Source of the DNA: Pirellulaceae bacterium
GTDB taxonomy: Bacteria; Planctomycetota; Planctomycetia; Pirellulales; Pirellulaceae
Direction of reading: 5' to 3'
NCBI GenBank assembly: GCA_023382975.1
Contig: JAHDXO010000014.1
Coordinates: 62,001-126,000 of the forward strand
DNA: 64,000 nucleotides
In this document: in pieces, positions 44,740-61,705 of the stretch
Numbering within the stretch: position 1 is the stretch's first letter
How the letters are laid out: each line of letters starts with the position of its first letter
The notes under the pieces: model-generated
Told to the model about the DNA's origin: nothing
Databases searched by the model: none
The model's input: the letters and a program-made list of their open reading frames with translations, nothing else
Program-made: the position numbers and the translations under genes

Positions 44740-47385
44740 ATGTCGACGAAGCTTGCCACCGCGTTTTTGGATCGGGTCCAGAGAAGTGGCCTGGTTTCCG
44801 AAGACCGACTTCCGCAGTTGCGGCAGGAGTTGGAGGATCGGGGTGTCGATCTGGCCAATCCCGGCTCCATCGCCGACGCGTTGGTCGACATGGGCGTTCT
44901 CAGCCGGTGGCAGGCCGACAAAGTGCTCGAGGGCAAGCACAAAGGGTTCTTCCTCGGTTCCTACCGCTTGCTGCGGCCCTTGGGCCGAGGCGGGATGGGT
45001 GCCGTCTTTCTCGCTCAACACGAAATGATGCGGCGCCAGTGTGCGATCAAAGTCCTGCCGCATTCTCAAATCAAAGAAGGTTCATCGGTTCTCAAGCGGT
45101 TCTATGTCGAAGCACAAGCCGTGGCCTCGCTGGACCACCAGAACATCGTTCGTGCCTACGACGTGAACATGGAAGCCAAGGACGGCAAAGACATCCATTA
45201 CTTGGTGATGGAGTTCGTCGAGGGGCGCGATCTCCAGACGCTCGTTCAGGAAGAAGGCGTGCTGGACTACGTCAAAGCGGCGGAGTATCTGCGCCAGACC
45301 GCCAACGGCTTGGCGCACGCCCACGGGAACGGACTGATCCACCGCGACATCAAACCGGCCAATCTGTTGGTCGACAAGAAGGGCGTGGTGAAGATCCTGG
45401 ATCTGGGATTGGCGCGGTTCTTTGACGACAGCGAACAAGCTTCGCTGACCACGGCCCACAACGAAACCGTGCTGGGAACCGCCGACTATCTGTCCCCCGA
45501 ACAGGCGTTGAACAGCCACACGGTCGACCACCGAACCGACATCTACAGCCTTGGTTGCACTGCGTATTTCATGCTGGCCGGCCATCCCCCGTTTCCGGAG
45601 GGAACCGTGGCGCAGCGTTTGGTAGCGCATCAAGTCAAAACACCTCAGCCGATCAAGGAAAAGCGTCGCGACGTGCCAAGCGATCTGGTGGCGATCATCG
45701 ACAAGATGATGGCCAAGCGGCCGGAGGAACGTTTCCAGACGGCCGAAGAGCTTTCCGCCGTCCTAGCTCGCTGGTTGTTCGAACATGGCGGAGACGAATG
45801 GAAACGCCAGCACTCGGAGATCGCGGGAGACAAGGCGTTGATGTCGCTGTTGTCCAGTCGCGAGCCCACCCGCACCATCCGGTCATCGATGAGCGAAACC
45901 GAGTTGGAACTCGAATTGGCGCCGTTGGAAGACGACCACGACGACATGGCTCCCTCCGCGAGTCGTTCCGGATCCAACTTGAACCTGGCTGGATCGGGCA
46001 TCCGCAAGGCGGCGGGCGAGTCTTCCGCATCCCGGCGCCGCGCGCCGGCCAAGAACGACAGCATCGACGAGCTGATGCCCTTGACCGACGACGAGGCACC
46101 GGCCACGCCCGCACCGAAGTCGGGCGCACCCGTCGCGCCGGTATCGCTGGCCAAAGCGTTGAGCGATGAATCGACGCTCCCTTCGCTGGACGATGAACTG
46201 AGCGCAGGGATCGAACCCCTGCCGGATTTGCAGCAGGTCGATCTGGCGTCCCTGGACACCAGCGACCTACTCGGCGGCTTGGACGAACACGACTTGGCAG
46301 GTGTTGGCCCGGCCGATGATCCGCTGGGTGCGATGGACAGCGATCTGCGGCAAGTGACGTTGGCCGGCGGCGGGTCGTCGTCCTCCAGAAGCCATCGCCG
46401 GGTCGAACCCGTTGCGGAGAAAGCGGTTGCTGCCCCGACAGCCGTCGTTGGTTTACCCATCTTGATCGGCGGAGCGGCCGGGTTGGTGCTGGTGCTGATC
46501 ATTCTGGCACTCGTGAATATGTCGACCAAACCGGAGCCTGCGAAGTTCGATCCGGGGCAGGTGAGACAGCCCGATCCCGCCGTTGCAGCGCCGGACGGCG
46601 CAGGAACTCAAGACACGCAGTCTGCCGATCCAGTGCGGGTTCCCGACGAAGGCGGCACAATCTCACCGCCCCGTAAGGATCCCGTTCAGGAACCACCCGT
46701 CGAAGTGGCCGTCGCGCCGCCCGAGTCGCAGCCGCCGACCCGCGAGCCGAGCCAGGATGTCGTACCGCCGGTTAAGCCGAAACCGGAGCCCGCGAAACCG
46801 GTGGAAGAACCGGTTGCCGTTCCCCCTCAGCCCGAGCCGAAACCAGAGCCGACGCCCACCGTAACGCCCAAGCCGGAGCCCGCAAAACCGGCGGACAAAC
46901 CAGAGGTTCCGAAGCCCGAACCGCCCGTGCCGACGCTCACGCCGCAGCAGAGGTTCGCTGCCATCGAAGGGTTCCGAGTGGAATTGAAACCACCGGGAGA
47001 CGGCAGGAAACCGACCGGAAAGATGGCCCCGCAACTTGCGAAGTTGCTGAGTAGTGTCACGATGGCAGTAGGCCGGGAGGTGGAGGAGACCGCCAAACAC
47101 TGCAACGTGACCTTCGACCCCGGCCAGAAGCCAGTGCTGATTCTTCAACCGGACATGCAGGCCGCTGCGCCCAACATTGTTCTGACGTTGCGGGCCGTGT
47201 TGACGGTGGAAGACGAGTCGGGCCAAACCGTCACGCTTTGGCAAAACGAGGGCGAGCTGGCGTCCTTCTTGCCGACTGCCAATTCTACGGTCGTGCTTGG
47301 CAATGCTCGCACCTCGATCGGAAGATTCTTCCGCGATTTCCGCGACAAGTACGATGAAGCCGTCGCGGCTCATTCTGCCCCGTGA
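44740..47385 (+). CDS. Transmembrane Ser/Thr protein kinase
   Basis: The 881-residue protein has a planctomycete-type N-terminal helix region, then a kinase domain from about 72. Visible motifs are the Gly loop (LGRGGMGAVFLA), the catalytic Lys (CAIKVLP), HRDIKPANLLVDKKG, a DLG variant of DFG (ILDLGLARFFDD), and GTADYLSPEQAL. A low-complexity acidic/Ser-rich stretch follows, then one membrane span near 572-594 (PILIGGAAGLVLVLIILALV). The outer part has repeated KPEPAKP units before a C-terminal domain of about 150 residues. It probably senses an extracytoplasmic cue and phosphorylates cytoplasmic targets. The target is not evident; the FHA protein at 53280 is a candidate reader only by type. 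Confidence 0.92.
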   Translation: MSTKLATAFLDRVQRSGLVSEDRLPQLRQELEDRGVDLANPGSIADALVDMGVLSRWQADKVLEGKHKGFFLGSYRLLRPLGRGGMGAVFLAQHEMMRRQCAIKVLPHSQIKEGSSVLKRFYVEAQAVASLDHQNIVRAYDVNMEAKDGKDIHYLVMEFVEGRDLQTLVQEEGVLDYVKAAEYLRQTANGLAHAHGNGLIHRDIKPANLLVDKKGVVKILDLGLARFFDDSEQASLTTAHNETVLGTADYLSPEQALNSHTVDHRTDIYSLGCTAYFMLAGHPPFPEGTVAQRLVAHQVKTPQPIKEKRRDVPSDLVAIIDKMMAKRPEERFQTAEELSAVLARWLFEHGGDEWKRQHSEIAGDKALMSLLSSREPTRTIRSSMSETELELELAPLEDDHDDMAPSASRSGSNLNLAGSGIRKAAGESSASRRRAPAKNDSIDELMPLTDDEAPATPAPKSGAPVAPVSLAKALSDESTLPSLDDELSAGIEPLPDLQQVDLASLDTSDLLGGLDEHDLAGVGPADDPLGAMDSDLRQVTLAGGGSSSSRSHRRVEPVAEKAVAAPTAVVGLPILIGGAAGLVLVLIILALVNMSTKPEPAKFDPGQVRQPDPAVAAPDGAGTQDTQSADPVRVPDEGGTISPPRKDPVQEPPVEVAVAPPESQPPTREPSQDVVPPVKPKPEPAKPVEEPVAVPPQPEPKPEPTPTVTPKPEPAKPADKPEVPKPEPPVPTLTPQQRFAAIEGFRVELKPPGDGRKPTGKMAPQLAKLLSSVTMAVGREVEETAKHCNVTFDPGQKPVLILQPDMQAAAPNIVLTLRAVLTVEDESGQTVTLWQNEGELASFLPTANSTVVLGNARTSIGRFFRDFRDKYDEAVAAHSAP

Positions 47386-53279: not shown

Positions 53280-53948
53280 ATGGTGCGGGTTACCCTGCGA
53301 GTTCTTGACGGCGCGGATCGCGGCCGAATTTTCGAAAGCCTTGACACGCCGGTTACGATCGGACGCGAAGAGGGCAATATCATTCAACTGAATGACGAAC
53401 GGGTCAGCCGTTTCCACGTCAAGATCCAGTCCGACGGCGACCGGTTGGTGCTGACCGATTTGGAGAGCACCAATGGCACGCGGGTCAACGGCGAAGACGT
53501 GCGCCTGCGGGTTCTGAAGTTCGGCGATCTGATCCAGTTGGGTCGCACGCTGGTTCTGATCGGATCGCGCGAACAGATCGAAGAACGGCTGAGTCATTTG
53601 CCTCCTCAAGAGTCGAAGGGCTGGTTCCGGTTCCGCAAGAATCGGACGATCGAAGAATCTCAGTCCGATTCCGGGAATCCGTGGACCGGCACGGAGAACT
53701 TGCAGGATTTCCTGTTCAACCACGAACCGCCGGAACTGCCGGATGATTTGACGGCTACGCAGGCAGCTCAATTGGCCGAACTGATTGACTACATGCGACT
53801 GCGACTCCGCGGTCTGGTCGCCACGGTCAAAGAAGACAAGACGGGAAACGTGACGCTGAACGCTGCCGAATGGCAGAAACTGGTCGATTTGAATTCTCGG
53901 CTGGCCGAGATGGTGCGGCAGATCGGCGAGCCCGATTCGACCGGCTAG
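53280..53948 (+). CDS. FHA-domain protein
   Basis: The 222-residue protein has an N-terminal FHA domain (residues 3-95) with the phosphothreonine-binding signature: TIGREEGNIIQLNDERVSRF, H in RFHVKIQ, and LESTNGTRVNG. The C-terminal half is helical and charged with a possible coiled coil (LNAAEWQKLVDLNSRLAEMV). There is no membrane segment. FHA domains read Thr-phosphorylated proteins, so it is a natural partner for the Ser/Thr kinases at 44740-47385 and 56871-58424. This is an inference from domain type. It precedes the cytochrome peroxidase gene by 139 bp. Confidence 0.92.
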   Translation: MVRVTLRVLDGADRGRIFESLDTPVTIGREEGNIIQLNDERVSRFHVKIQSDGDRLVLTDLESTNGTRVNGEDVRLRVLKFGDLIQLGRTLVLIGSREQIEERLSHLPPQESKGWFRFRKNRTIEESQSDSGNPWTGTENLQDFLFNHEPPELPDDLTATQAAQLAELIDYMRLRLRGLVATVKEDKTGNVTLNAAEWQKLVDLNSRLAEMVRQIGEPDSTG

Positions 53949-54087: not shown

Positions 54088-55143
54088 ATGAATCGAGCAC
54101 ACCGAATTCTGTCGGCTGGGATCGCCGGAGCGATCCTGATGGTCGCCGCGAATGCGGCATTGCAATGGGCGGATGCCGCCGAGCCCGCGAAGGTCACCAA
54201 GAAGCAAAGCGCGAAGCTGCTGAAGGACGCTCAAGCCGTTTTCGCAAAGTTGCCCGAGAAGATGCCCGGCAGCGAGAACGATACGCCCGCTCGGATCGCT
54301 CTGGGCGAAAAACTGTATTTCGAGAAGGCCATTTCGATCAACAAAACTCAATCCTGCAACGACTGCCATCGCGTGGACAACAAACTGGGCGGCGTCGACA
54401 ACCTGCCCACCTCGCCGGGTGCAGAAGGAAAACGGGGCGACCGAAATTCCCCCACGACGTTGAATGCCGGATTGCACGTGGCTCAGTTCTGGGACGGCCG
54501 CGCCGCGGACTTGGTCGAACAGGCCAAGGGGCCGGTCCTGAACCCGATCGAAATGGGCATGCCCAGCGAAGCGATTGTGTTGGCCCGTTTGAAGGAAGCC
54601 GATTACACGCCTTTGTTCGAGAAAGCGTTTCCCGACAGCCAGCAGCCGTTGACGTACGACAACTACGCCGAGGCGGTGGCGGCCTTCGAGCGGACACTCA
54701 TCACGCGCGACCGCTTCGACGACTTCCTGGGTGGGGACCAGCAAGCGCTGAACGCCCGCGAAAAACAGGGGCTGGCGCTCTTCATGGAAATCGGCTGCAC
54801 CGAATGCCACCAAGGCGCGCTGCTGGGAGGCACGGAGTTCCGAAAGGCGGGCGAAGTCGAACCGTACGCCAATACCAAGGATTTGGGACGCTTCGCGGTG
54901 ACGAAGAAGGAGGAAGACAAATTTGTTTTCAAAGTCCCGTCCTTGCGCAACATCCAGATCACTCGCCCGTACTTCCATGACGGGAAAGTCAAGACGCTGC
55001 CGGAAGCCGTCAAGTTGATGGGCAAGCTGCAGTTGGGCACGGATTTGGATGACGAGCAAACAGCTTTGATCGTCGCCTTCCTCCGCACCCTGACCGACAA
55101 AGACCGCGTCCCGATGCCCAAGGCCAAGCCTAAGGCCGGCTAA
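54088..55143 (+). CDS. Di-heme cytochrome c peroxidase / MauG family protein, periplasmic
   Basis: The 351-residue precursor has a signal peptide (ILSAGIAGAILMVAANAALQ). The two heme c motifs are CNDCH and CTECH. Family features are ARIALGEKLYFEKAISINKT, HVAQFWDGRAADLVEQAKGP, NPIEMGMPSEAIV and FKVPSLRNIQITRPYFHDGK. These enzymes reduce hydrogen peroxide with electrons from a small cytochrome, or modify protein residues (MauG). The length fits bacterial CcpA. It sits 139 bp after the FHA gene and is followed by a strong terminator-like hairpin. Peroxide handling links it in theme to the peroxiredoxin-kinase fusion 1.7 kb downstream. Confidence 0.92.
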   Translation: MNRAHRILSAGIAGAILMVAANAALQWADAAEPAKVTKKQSAKLLKDAQAVFAKLPEKMPGSENDTPARIALGEKLYFEKAISINKTQSCNDCHRVDNKLGGVDNLPTSPGAEGKRGDRNSPTTLNAGLHVAQFWDGRAADLVEQAKGPVLNPIEMGMPSEAIVLARLKEADYTPLFEKAFPDSQQPLTYDNYAEAVAAFERTLITRDRFDDFLGGDQQALNAREKQGLALFMEIGCTECHQGALLGGTEFRKAGEVEPYANTKDLGRFAVTKKEEDKFVFKVPSLRNIQITRPYFHDGKVKTLPEAVKLMGKLQLGTDLDDEQTALIVAFLRTLTDKDRVPMPKAKPKAG

Positions 55144-56758: not shown

Positions 56759-56870
56759 CGATCGTCTTCCTTGGCTCGTTTCCCTTCATCCGGCGCGAAC
56801 GGATTGACAGGCTGAGCGAAGGCGGGTTTTTTGCCTTGCAGCGATGGTTGCAAGGCAGGCGGTGATGCAG

Positions 56871-58424
56871 ATGGCAAGAGTGGGCGAAGCAGCTCCTGAG
56901 TTTGCGCTGGCGTGCGTCGATGCCAGGGACGGTGCGCGCTGGGCGATCCGGCGGGACGAGAGCGCGGGCCGTTGGCTGGCCTTGGTGTTCTATCCGCGGG
57001 ACTTCTCGTTTGTTTGCCCGACCGAGTTGACGTCGTTCAGCGCTCGCTGGAGGGATTTCGCCGAGCGCAAGTGCGACCTGCTGGGCATCAGCGTCGATCC
57101 GGTTGAACTGCATCGGGAGTGGCTGCGGACGCCGCCTTCCGAAGGCGGGCTCGGACCCTTGCAGTTCCCGCTGGCGTCCGACCCGGACGGCGCGACGGCC
57201 CGCGCCTACGGAGTCTGGGTCGAAGCCAAGCAGGTGTCGGCACGAGGCTTGTTCCTGATCGATCCCGACGGCATTCTGCAATATGCGGTGGTCCACAATC
57301 TGAACGTGGGTCGCACTCCGGACGAGGTGCTGCGCGTCTTGGATGCACTTCAGACCGGTGGCCTGTGTCCCGCAAGTTGGACGTCGGCCGACGGCACGAT
57401 CGATCCCGAGCGCGCGTTGCAACCGGGACGCATCCTGGGACATTACCGCATTCGGCAGAAACTTGGCAGCGGGACATTCGGAACAGTGTTCGCCGCTTGG
57501 GACTTGCGGCTGGAACGCATGGTGGCGTTGAAAGTTCTCAAACGCCATGTGTTCGAATCTCGCGACGCGGTGCTCGCCGAGGCCCGCACGGCGGCCAAGG
57601 TGAACGTGCCCAACGTCTGTACGATCTATGCCGTCGAGGAAGAAGACGGTCTCCCACTGATCGCCATGGAATACCTGGAGGGCCGAACGTTGTCGCACGT
57701 GATGGCCGAGCCCCTTTCGCGCGATGCCGTGCGGACGATCGCGATGCAAATCGCCTCAGGGCTGGTTGCCGCTCACGCTCAACAGGTGGTGCATGGCGAT
57801 CTGAAGCCGGCGAACGTGATGGTCGGCAGCGATGGGGTCGCGAAGATCCTCGATTTCGGATTGGTCGGGCCTCCGCAGGCGTCCCGCGAGGTATCGCCGG
57901 AATCAAATCGGGACGGGCCTTCGGCGACTCCGCGCGGCGATCCGACGAATTTCGCGCAGGCTGACCAGACGTTGGCCTACGAAGGCCTCGGTTCCGCCGA
58001 GGCGGCCGCGAAGACGGAACAACCGCCGCGCGTCCATGTTCCGGAACCGCTCCCGTTTCCGGTGGCGGGGCGAATCCGTGGAACCCCGGCTTACATGTCG
58101 CCCGAGCAGGCGGCGGGGCATCGCCCGACTCCGGCGAGCGACGTGTTCGCCTTCGGCCTAATGTGGTTCGAGATGTTGACTGGCCGAAAGGCGCACCCCG
58201 AGATGTCGCTGGGCCGTCTGCTGGCTCGTCTGCGCACCGAGGAGTTGGCACCGAGCCTGATCGCCGAGGTCGAGCCGACGGCCCGCGATCTGCTGGCCGC
58301 GATGCTGGCCCGCGACGCGGCCAGGCGTCCGGAGATGAGCGAAGTGCTGCAATGGCTGGCGGCGGAGACTCCGCGGATGTCCCGCGAGACGGTCGATGGC
58401 AAACTGGATGAAAGCCTGAACTGA
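56871..58424 (+). CDS. Peroxiredoxin-Ser/Thr protein kinase fusion
   Basis: With ATG 56871 (AGGCGG eight bases upstream; ATG 56844 and 56865 also possible) the product has 517 residues. Residues 1-172 are a typical 2-Cys AhpC/Prx1 peroxiredoxin: VFYPRDFSFVCPTELTSFS with peroxidatic Cys49, and GGLCPASW with resolving Cys166. Residues about 188-505 are a kinase: LGSGTFGTVFAAWDLRLERM, catalytic Lys221, VVHGDLKPANVMVG (HGD instead of HRD), ILDFGLVGPP and GTPAYMSPEQAAG. The segment between DFG and SPE spans about 80 residues, far longer than usual, and is rich in Pro, Ala and Ser. No signal or membrane segment is seen, so it is cytoplasmic. A peroxide-sensing kinase is a reasonable hypothesis; the fusion itself is directly visible in one unbroken frame. 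Confidence 0.93.
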   Translation: MARVGEAAPEFALACVDARDGARWAIRRDESAGRWLALVFYPRDFSFVCPTELTSFSARWRDFAERKCDLLGISVDPVELHREWLRTPPSEGGLGPLQFPLASDPDGATARAYGVWVEAKQVSARGLFLIDPDGILQYAVVHNLNVGRTPDEVLRVLDALQTGGLCPASWTSADGTIDPERALQPGRILGHYRIRQKLGSGTFGTVFAAWDLRLERMVALKVLKRHVFESRDAVLAEARTAAKVNVPNVCTIYAVEEEDGLPLIAMEYLEGRTLSHVMAEPLSRDAVRTIAMQIASGLVAAHAQQVVHGDLKPANVMVGSDGVAKILDFGLVGPPQASREVSPESNRDGPSATPRGDPTNFAQADQTLAYEGLGSAEAAAKTEQPPRVHVPEPLPFPVAGRIRGTPAYMSPEQAAGHRPTPASDVFAFGLMWFEMLTGRKAHPEMSLGRLLARLRTEELAPSLIAEVEPTARDLLAAMLARDAARRPEMSEVLQWLAAETPRMSRETVDGKLDESLN

Positions 58425-58467: not shown

Positions 58468-60117
58468 ATGAACGCAGCGCCGCCTGAAACGCTGAGCCTG
58501 ACAAGCCCGTCCCCGCATGTTTCGCGCCGCGGGTTTTTGTCTCAAGCTGCCGCGCTGGGCGCGCTAGCGATATCCGGCTTGCCGGATTCTGCCGCGCAGG
58601 AGATTCCCGAATCGAGGCCCGTGCCGTACGACGTGTTCGTCTACGGCTCGACGCCCGGCGGGTGCGCGGCGGCGATCGAGGCGGCGCGGCGCGGGTGCAA
58701 AGTGGCGCTCGTGTGTCCCAAGATGCATCCAGGCGGCATGGCTGCCAGCGGGCTGTCCACCACCGACGCGGTGCGGCGCGAGTTGTTCGGCGGGCTGGTC
58801 GCGGAATTCATCGCCGGAGTCCGCGACGAATACCGGCGCCGACTGGGCGAGAGTTCGCCCCAGTGGAAGTTCGTCCACGACGGCTGGTATTACGAACCGT
58901 CGGTCGCCGAAGCCGTGTTCGACCGCCTGCTGGACGCCGAGTCGGAGCGGCTCGATTTCTTCCGCGGCCATCACTTGCTCGAAGCCACGGTCCAGGGGGA
59001 CCGCGTGGTCGAAGTGCTTGTGGAAACTCGGCAAGGCAAACGCGAACGGATGGTTGCAGGAACCTACATCGACGGCACGTACGAAGGCGATCTTGCCGCG
59101 GCGGCCAAGGTGCCGTACCGAGTCGGGCGCGAGGGCCGCGACGAGTATGGCGAACCGTTGGCGGGCATCCACTATATGAATTGGCGGACCGGACAGCAGA
59201 TCATGACGGCGGACAGCGGCGAACCGTCGCCGGCCATCCAGGCGTTCTGCGCGCGGAGCATCTTCACCACCGACCCGGAAAAACTCGTACCGTTCGAGAA
59301 GCCGGCGTCCTACGATCAGCACCTGCCCGATCTGCTGCCGCTGCTGGACGATTTCGCTTCGGGCCGTGTCAAGTCCATTGGCCTCGGTACGCCGCTGCCC
59401 GGCAGGAAGTTCCAGGCGAACGGCAACATCGAGGCGTTGACCAGCTTGAATTGTCCCGGCGTTAGTTGGACATGGCCCGAGGCGCGACGACACCACCGCG
59501 AACGGCTCGAGCGGTTTCACATCGAGCATGCGGCCAGCTATGCGTGGTTCCTGCAGAACGAGCCGCGAGTGCCGGAGAACATCCGCGCCGTGTGGCGCCA
59601 AGCCGGTCTGCATCGGGACGAGTTCGCCGACAACGGACACTGGCCCTGGCAGATCTACGTGCGGCAGGGCCGGCGGATCGAGGGTCGCGAGATCGTCACG
59701 CAGCGAAACTTCACGGTCAATCCCCAGTCCGGACGCACGCCGCAAGTCGAGCACCCGATCGCCATCGGCGAGCACTCGTTCGACGTCCACCCGTGCCACG
59801 ACCGGCGGTTCACCGTCGAGGGATTTATGGAAGGCGTGCTCTGGTATCCGAAAAAGGCCGACGGCCCCGCGCAGCCCGGCCAAGTGCCCTACGGCGCCAT
59901 GCTGCCAAGGCAAGTGAACAATCTGCTGGTGCCCGTCGCCCTGTCCTGCACGCACATCGCGATGAGCGTGCTGCGGATGGAGCCGCTGTGGATGACCACC
60001 GGTCAGACCGCCGGGTTGGCCGCCGTCGTCGCTCGCGACACCCACACCGACGCCGCCCTGATCGATCCCGCCCCCCTGCCTGAAATGCTCGGTGTTCGAG
60101 TCGATCCGTACGGGTGA
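58468..60117 (+). CDS. FAD-dependent oxidoreductase, Tat-exported
   Basis: The 549-residue product has a twin-arginine signal (VSRRGFLSQAAALGALAISG), an FAD-binding start (YDVFVYGSTPGGCAAAIEAA, then RRGCKVALVCPKMHPGGMAA) and the family pattern YIDGTYEGDLAAAAKVPYRV plus the C-terminal VPVALSCTHIAMSVLRMEPL. This corresponds to the FAD-dependent oxidoreductase group PF12831, common in planctomycetes with polysaccharide and sulfatase genes. The reaction is unknown. It starts 43 bp after the peroxiredoxin-kinase stop and 148 bp before a sulfatase gene, so the three may share a transcript. Confidence 0.88.
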   Translation: MNAAPPETLSLTSPSPHVSRRGFLSQAAALGALAISGLPDSAAQEIPESRPVPYDVFVYGSTPGGCAAAIEAARRGCKVALVCPKMHPGGMAASGLSTTDAVRRELFGGLVAEFIAGVRDEYRRRLGESSPQWKFVHDGWYYEPSVAEAVFDRLLDAESERLDFFRGHHLLEATVQGDRVVEVLVETRQGKRERMVAGTYIDGTYEGDLAAAAKVPYRVGREGRDEYGEPLAGIHYMNWRTGQQIMTADSGEPSPAIQAFCARSIFTTDPEKLVPFEKPASYDQHLPDLLPLLDDFASGRVKSIGLGTPLPGRKFQANGNIEALTSLNCPGVSWTWPEARRHHRERLERFHIEHAASYAWFLQNEPRVPENIRAVWRQAGLHRDEFADNGHWPWQIYVRQGRRIEGREIVTQRNFTVNPQSGRTPQVEHPIAIGEHSFDVHPCHDRRFTVEGFMEGVLWYPKKADGPAQPGQVPYGAMLPRQVNNLLVPVALSCTHIAMSVLRMEPLWMTTGQTAGLAAVVARDTHTDAALIDPAPLPEMLGVRVDPYG

Positions 60118-60265
60118 GCCGAGTGGCATCGCCCGAGAGTCCGTCCTGCTCTCACCGCCGTACTTGGCTCGTTGCTGAGCCACGGGGTTGACGGCGGATT
60201 GCGAAACGAGGCTTCGGGGTCGTCGGTCTGGCGTCGCGGCGACGGGCGCGTTACGATGGCCGATT

Positions 60266-61705
60266 ATGAACACCAAATCCTGCTTGATCGTACTGCCGTT
60301 CCTACTGTTTGCCGTCCAACGTTCCGCGTTGGCTAGCGACGAGCGGCCGAATTTCCTGATCATCCTGGCGGACGATTGTACGTATAACGATCTGCCTGGG
60401 TACGGTGGCCAAAATGCGAGGACGCCGCATCTCGACTCGCTGGCCCGGGAGGGTCTGACGTTCGACCGCTGCTACGTGAGCATGGCGATGTGCCAGCCGT
60501 GCCGAGCCGAGTTGTACACCGGGCAGTATCCGCTGCGCAACGGATGCGCATGGAACCACAGCGCGAGCCGGCCCGGCACGCGCAGTCTGCCGCAGCATCT
60601 GGGATCGCTGGGATATCGCGTCGGTCTGGCGGGCAAAGTGCATGTGTTGCCCCCGGAGGCGTTTCCCTTCGAGGTGGTCGCGGGATTCGACGGCAACTGC
60701 GTACGGAACCCGACGCAGTCGCATCGGCTGGACGAGGTGCGCGAGTTCATCGCGCGCCGGCAGGACCAGCCGTTCTGTCTGGTGATTTCGTTGGTCGAGC
60801 CGCATGTGCCTTGGGTCATGGGCGATGCTTCGCAGTACCCGCCGCGGCAGTTGAAGCTGCCGCCGAACATTGCGGACACGCCGCGAACCCGGCAGGATTT
60901 CGCGAGATACCTGGCCGAGATCACCTACATGGACGGTCAAGTTGGCGAGATTCTCGCCGCACTGGCCGACGCGCAGGCCGCGGACAAGACGCTCGTTCTC
61001 TTCAGCAGCGAGCAGGGCTCGCAATTCCCGGGCTGCAAGTGGACGAACTGGGACACGGGATTGCACACAGCGCTGATCGCTCGCTGGCCCGGCAAGGTTC
61101 CCGCGGGCCAACGCACCACGGCGCTGGTCCAGTACGCGGATCTCGCCCCCACGCTGATCGACTTGGCCGGCGGTAATGCGTCCGAACCGGGGTTCGCTTT
61201 CGACGGCACCAGCTTGGCCGGCGTGCTCCGCGGCCAGCGGACGGAGCACCGCCGCTTTGCTTACGGCGCTCACAACAACATCCCGGAAGGTCCGGCCTTC
61301 CCGATCCGCACGGTCACCGATGGCCAGTGGCGCTACATCCGCAACTTGACGCCGTCCGAACTGTACATCGAGAAGCACCTGATGGGCATCCAAGGCAGCG
61401 GCGAGTTGAACAACCCGTACTGGCACACTTGGATCGGTACCGCTTGGGACAATCCCGACACCTATCGCTTGGTGAAGCGTTACATGACGCGACCGGCCGA
61501 GGAGTTGTACCACACGGCCGCCGACCCCTACGAGATGGCCAACCTGGCCGACGATCCGGATTGCGCGACGACCAAGGCCCGTTTGTCCGCGGTACTCGAC
61601 CGCTGGCTCGCTGAACAAAACGACCCCGGCATCCCGCAGGACACGCACGAAGTCCACCGAGCCGCGAAGCAGGGTGAACACAGGTACTTCCCGAAAGCGG
61701 ACTGA
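60266..61705 (+). CDS. Secreted sulfatase, type I formylglycine family (CQPCR motif)
   Basis: ATG 60266 begins MNTKSCLIVLPFLLFAVQRS, a signal peptide; the open frame to 60188 adds non-conserved residues. The 479-residue enzyme has NFLIILADDCTYNDLPGYGG, where the metal-binding Asp pair is followed by Cys, and the signature MCQPCRAELYTGQYPLRNG. The first Cys is the formylglycine precursor in CxPxR, with a second Cys at the fourth place, where Ser, Ala or Thr is usual. EPHVPWVMGD, LFSSEQGSQFPG and the C-terminal ELYHTAADPYEMANLADDPD are conserved. It removes sulfate esters outside the cytoplasm. It is followed by rnpB. Confidence 0.9.
   Translation: MNTKSCLIVLPFLLFAVQRSALASDERPNFLIILADDCTYNDLPGYGGQNARTPHLDSLAREGLTFDRCYVSMAMCQPCRAELYTGQYPLRNGCAWNHSASRPGTRSLPQHLGSLGYRVGLAGKVHVLPPEAFPFEVVAGFDGNCVRNPTQSHRLDEVREFIARRQDQPFCLVISLVEPHVPWVMGDASQYPPRQLKLPPNIADTPRTRQDFARYLAEITYMDGQVGEILAALADAQAADKTLVLFSSEQGSQFPGCKWTNWDTGLHTALIARWPGKVPAGQRTTALVQYADLAPTLIDLAGGNASEPGFAFDGTSLAGVLRGQRTEHRRFAYGAHNNIPEGPAFPIRTVTDGQWRYIRNLTPSELYIEKHLMGIQGSGELNNPYWHTWIGTAWDNPDTYRLVKRYMTRPAEELYHTAADPYEMANLADDPDCATTKARLSAVLDRWLAEQNDPGIPQDTHEVHRAAKQGEHRYFPKAD

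Follow-up and report, generated by a model that had tools for sequence, protein, structure and literature searches.

The window, a 64,000-nucleotide stretch of a contig from a Pirellulaceae bacterium, carries on its forward strand a gene (P0001; 56871..58424) whose frame runs unbroken from an ATG at 56871 to a stop at 58424 and encodes 517 residues; an alternative in-frame ATG at 56844 is possible and would add nine residues to the protein. The open frame, the Pfam domains and a family of similar fusions identify the product as a peroxiredoxin (Prx) joined to a protein kinase. A typical 2-Cys Prx domain occupies residues 1-175 (56871..57395), as judged from Pfam, a match to human Prx2 and Foldseek, the tail or linker leads from Cys166 to the kinase over residues 167-190 (57369..57440), and a Hanks-type Ser/Thr kinase domain occupies residues 191-505 (57441..58385). 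The protein is soluble and has no transmembrane segment (the highest 19-residue Kyte-Doolittle mean is 1.09). The frame, Pfam and the absence of a membrane segment all bear out the preliminary description of a complete 2-Cys Prx fused to a soluble kinase, and the motifs reported there are in place: Cys49 in FVCPTE, Cys166 in LCPASW, the glycine loop, Lys221, HGDLKPAN (residues 308-315) and DFG (residues 328-330), with SPE at residues 410-412. An AlphaFold model built on 26 sequences (mean pLDDT 78.9) has two well-formed domains, and their mutual placement is not fixed (pTM 0.65). The poorly defined parts are the peroxidatic loop (46-48) and residues 173-175 beyond the resolving cysteine, both with pLDDT below 50, and the activation insert.

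Upstream of the fusion and within 12 kb of it, on the same strand, are genes for another Ser/Thr kinase (45025-47385), an FHA-domain protein (53280-53948) and a di-haem cytochrome c peroxidase of the CCP_MauG type (54088-55143), none of which is conserved beside the fusion elsewhere. Downstream are an FAD-dependent oxidoreductase (58468-60117, +) and a sulfatase (60188-61705, +), typical planctomycete genes with no evident link to it. No conserved operon partner, such as a thioredoxin or a phosphatase, was found, and the flanks are common to sister genomes only.

In the Prx half, Pfam AhpC-TSA covers residues 4-138 (E 2e-31). The closest solved structures by sequence are human Prx1 and Prx2 (E 1e-41 for Prx2), and Foldseek gives a target TM-score of about 0.9 with 42% identity to these proteins; identity to solved Prxs is about 36-44% overall. 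Family conservation was read from a 36-row alignment, which includes some near relatives and leaves out L129 and L137, both with an in-frame stop at the locus. All 36 rows have the P-x-x-x-(T/S)-x-x-C signature and the catalytic arginine, as Pro42, Ser46 (57006..57008), the peroxidatic Cys49 (57015..57017) and Arg125 (57243..57245), and all have the resolving Cys166 (57366..57368), which lies close to the C terminus of the Prx domain and aligns with the cysteine of GEVCPAGW in Prx2. With every catalytic residue invariant, a dead Prx can be rejected. The triad residue is Ser46 in every fusion, whereas the set of 14 standalone Prxs compared from the hosts has threonine. The fusion shares with human Prx1 and Prx2 and E. 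coli AhpC the fold, the P-x-x-x-S-x-x-C motif, the arginine, the C-terminal resolving cysteine and the GG of GGLG, but differs in carrying a kinase at the end of the switch tail and in lacking the C-terminal YF helix. The kinase begins where that helix would stand, a point at which the chain of standalone host Prxs ends, in some as a short tail and in others as an FF/YF helix. The features of a sensitive, hyperoxidation-prone Prx are therefore incomplete, since GG is kept, the fourth residue of GGLG varies and the YF helix is absent.

The kinase half is matched by Pfam Pkinase over residues 192-333 and a second stretch (E 1e-41). In VIA-align, model residues 183-503 superpose on PknA with Z 30.8 and 2.2 A over 260 residues, and Z ranges from 28 to 31 for PknA and PknB. 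From the glycine loop to APE the domain is that of a Hanks-type Ser/Thr kinase: the ATP lysine Lys221 (57531..57533), Glu237, His308, Gly309, Asp310, Lys312, Asn315 and DFG (57852..57860) are invariant in the 36 members, and the glutamate of SPE/APE is present in all 35 that are long enough, the exception being L012, which ends at a contig end. This invariance excludes a pseudokinase. The catalytic loop reads HGD (residues 308-310, 57792..57800), with glycine in place of arginine, so that the enzyme is not of the RD type. What had been remarked on as an oddity of one protein proves to be a hallmark of the family, occurring in 36 of 36 fusions, in one of 31 other kinase motifs at loci fetched from this genome (a part of the genome) and in none of 84 motifs from the nearest kinase-only loci. 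Kinship through HGD with aminoglycoside phosphotransferases or ABC1 kinases was rejected, Pfam scoring these only weakly (39 and 28 bits, where Pkinase reaches 143). The protein is also not a PASTA kinase; it scores 175.7 against the 450-bit NCBIfam cut-off for the Stk1/PknB equivalog and has neither a transmembrane segment nor a Pfam PASTA domain. It thus shares with PknA, PknB and StkP a complete kinase fold and the catalytic residues, but differs in HGD for HRD, a long variable activation segment and the missing membrane and PASTA part. In kinases that lack the HRD arginine, phosphorylation of the activation loop is thought to be unneeded and in vitro activity is often low, with exceptions (PMC8463890); the loss of this arginine argues against the usual control through phosphate on the activation loop and would allow a different input. 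Cys250, found in 33 of 36 members within HPN(V/I)CTIY, was considered as a redox cysteine of the kinase itself and set aside, since it also occurs in the kinase-only consensus and is not specific to the family.

The second oddity noted earlier, a segment of roughly 80 residues between DFG and SPE, is present here (82 residues) but varies from 28 to 82 in the family and is no hallmark. The insert within it (residues 332-403, 57864..58079) is poorly conserved, with pLDDT mostly below 50, and positions 334-400 of the alignment have a mean majority frequency of 0.19 and an occupancy of 0.55. Of 34 members, 20 have in this segment a motif of the form acidic-x-Thr-(VILAST)-(VILDEF), where shuffling predicts 3.6, and once near relatives are thinned the figures are 12 of 25 and 2.3; the excess is a lead only, because the pattern was picked after the segments had been inspected. 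Thr367 (ADQTLAY, 57969..57971), placed by eye, is its probable counterpart here. The motif is possibly an autophosphorylation site or an FHA-docking site.

The fusion is not confined to this genome. A genome-contig scan with the single protein returned five more fusions, four from Planctomycetota metagenome-assembled genomes (MAGs) and one from a Myxococcales MAG, and a genome search at E no greater than 1e-60 matched 43 of 397 genomes sampled from the class and 12 of 392 from the phylum, in several families. Each matching genome has a single copy, with open frames of 450-840 residues; for matches outside the alignment, the fusion was judged by whether the match spanned the two domains (query residues about 2-333). 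The concern that the fusion occurs only here, through an assembly error, is thereby removed: the gene has homologues across many separately assembled genomes, several of which consist of a single contig, and this rules out a chimeric assembly. The Myxococcales fusion lies at one end of its contig, which is 3.7 kb long, and its genome is the sole match among 237 Myxococcota, so that this contig may reflect transfer or a binning error. On this contig (L012) a small regulator (1857-2363, -), Rrf2-like by eye, is oriented divergently to the fusion, and a second similar regulator lies nearby (155-706, -). No fusion was found in 297 Acidobacteriota and 299 Pseudomonadota genomes, samples that had no internal positive control. 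The range given here is a minimum, since the searches covered samples of only three other phyla and the contig scan catches close relatives only. One relative, in genome G027 (L099:1453-3972, L110), has a frame of about 839 residues with a second kinase domain, bearing HRD, after the HGD kinase.

Both halves are under purifying selection, with dN/dS of about 0.05-0.14 for the Prx and 0.05-0.20 for the kinase in seven close pairs. In the Prx tree the fusion halves form one clade apart from 17 standalone Prxs (92/89), with a local support of 0.87 once L213 is added, and in a quick kinase tree the kinase halves cluster together, apart from 75 other kinases (SH-aLRT 100). Pairwise distances of the two halves are correlated (r 0.88, 0 of 2000 permutations). 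The simplest reading of these sequence comparisons is a single old fusion event, after which both halves were passed on together and the gene was lost or transferred here and there; recurrent independent fusion is not favored, given one clade in each tree, the kinase tree being the quick one. Mobile spread was also rejected, as there was no plasmid match and a scan of viral contigs with the Prx half was empty. L213, a match in an Acidobacteriota genome (G1213), was rejected as a fusion; it is a Prx standing alone, with a short tail, and is 49% identical to the Prx half of the fusion, against 33-43% for planctomycete standalones. A Prx of this kind may have been the donor type, although L213 itself groups outside the clade of fusions. 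A search with the Prx half gave a second Prx-like match in 16 of 20 fusion genomes, some of them weak and perhaps of other Prx types, which indicates that the fusion is usually additional to a housekeeping Prx.

The junction between the halves is nearly constant in length. From Cys166 to the invariant Tyr192, where the first kinase strand starts, there are 26 residues in the aligned members, 27 in L097. Linker positions 176-190 are gapless with a mean majority frequency of 0.58, near the domain level (0.64 for the Prx, 0.63-0.65 for the N-lobe and catalytic loop, 0.63-0.66 for the domains overall); dN/dS estimates for the linker are noisy, and in some close pairs they are not low. These features bear on whether the protein is simply two independent enzymes joined for co-expression or co-localization. 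Conserved active sites would also be expected if the halves worked independently, and the uncertain domain arrangement in the predicted model would also suit such a reading, but the fixed and conserved linker, the joint inheritance of the halves and a family-specific HGD make it very improbable.

The fusion is instead rather probably a cytoplasmic one-protein peroxide sensor kinase whose kinase state is set by the redox cycle of the Prx. E. coli AhpC, a protein of 187 residues, has its resolving cysteine at position 166, as does the fusion, in which the kinase starts about 22-26 residues on. The AhpC tail (172-187) covers the active site of the partner in the reduced form and is disordered in the disulfide form, and it has been described as a molecular switch that connects the oligomer interface with the active site (PMC5124861). 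With the kinase N-lobe hung on this switch tail, each redox cycle should alter the tether of the kinase. Peroxide would react with Cys49, and the resulting sulfenic acid would condense with Cys166 of the partner subunit, by analogy with AhpC and Prx1. The cycle would also alter the pairing of the kinase with neighboring kinases in a dimer or ring, the oxidized state being expected, by a slight preference, to be the active one, and a thioredoxin-like reductant would reset the sensor. The preliminary proposal that the fusion may switch kinase activity by redox state is favored by this anatomy, in its invariant cysteines and conserved link of fixed length; we infer the dependence of activity on redox state from it, as we do everything from the disulfide to the kinase output, together with the dimeric or decameric state, the redox coupling, its direction, the reductant and the substrates. 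Against the sensor reading stand the lack of a conserved neighbor such as a thioredoxin or phosphatase, the unfixed placement of the domains in the model, the noisy linker dN/dS and the fact that independently working halves would keep their active sites as well. A one-component peroxide receptor of a hitherto undescribed class, in which the disulfide unfolds the tail that tethers the kinase, a non-RD kinase is thereby turned on or off and the acidic-x-Thr site is read by partners, is possible, if somewhat doubtful.

PknB-like kinases dimerize through the N-lobe, and the match of the fusion kinase to their structures would also be consistent with the Prx fold serving mainly as a scaffold, holding kinases together in a stable dimer or ring so that they can phosphorylate one another, with its redox chemistry incidental. 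Typical 2-Cys Prxs are dimers or decamers, and Prxs whose triad has serine rather than threonine are the more stable as decamers (PMC8300647), which the invariant Ser46 would fit. A scaffold has no need, however, to keep both cysteines and the arginine and serine of the triad in 36 of 36 divergent members, and this explanation is unlikely. Under control by the Prx redox cycle, a stable decamer of the Ser46 type would favor signaling by tail movement over ring break-up. Control could also run in reverse, the kinase phosphorylating its own or other Prx domains and so tuning peroxide scavenging. The fused kinase is intact, and PMC7912311 reports that the activity of a eukaryotic Prx is modulated by phosphorylation; most hosts, however, keep separate scavenging Prxs and no conserved phospho-site is known in the Prx half, so that reverse control is distinctly improbable.

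Published surveys of kinase architectures in bacteria or planctomycetes (PMC1262709, PMC11032199) describe kinases combined with accessory domains, as in the present protein, and include a kinase from mycobacteria that carries a DsbA-like thioredoxin-fold domain; neither peroxiredoxin nor AhpC appears in their main texts. A text search across 5.39 million open-access papers found no description of a Prx-kinase fusion in bacteria; databases may nevertheless contain entries with this architecture. The protein is thus apparently an undescribed combination of known parts. In yeast, Tsa1 and PKA likewise tie a Prx to kinase signaling (PMC8164027), but the eukaryotic partners are separate whereas here they form one chain. 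Signaling from a Prx to a kinase is difficult to investigate, as the two are usually distinct proteins in transient contact; a covalent fusion with both active sites conserved offers a minimal one-protein system for it. The known bacterial peroxide sensors are mostly transcription factors, such as OxyR, PerR and OhrR. If the proposed working is true, the fusion would provide a direct peroxide input to bacterial Ser/Thr phosphorylation.
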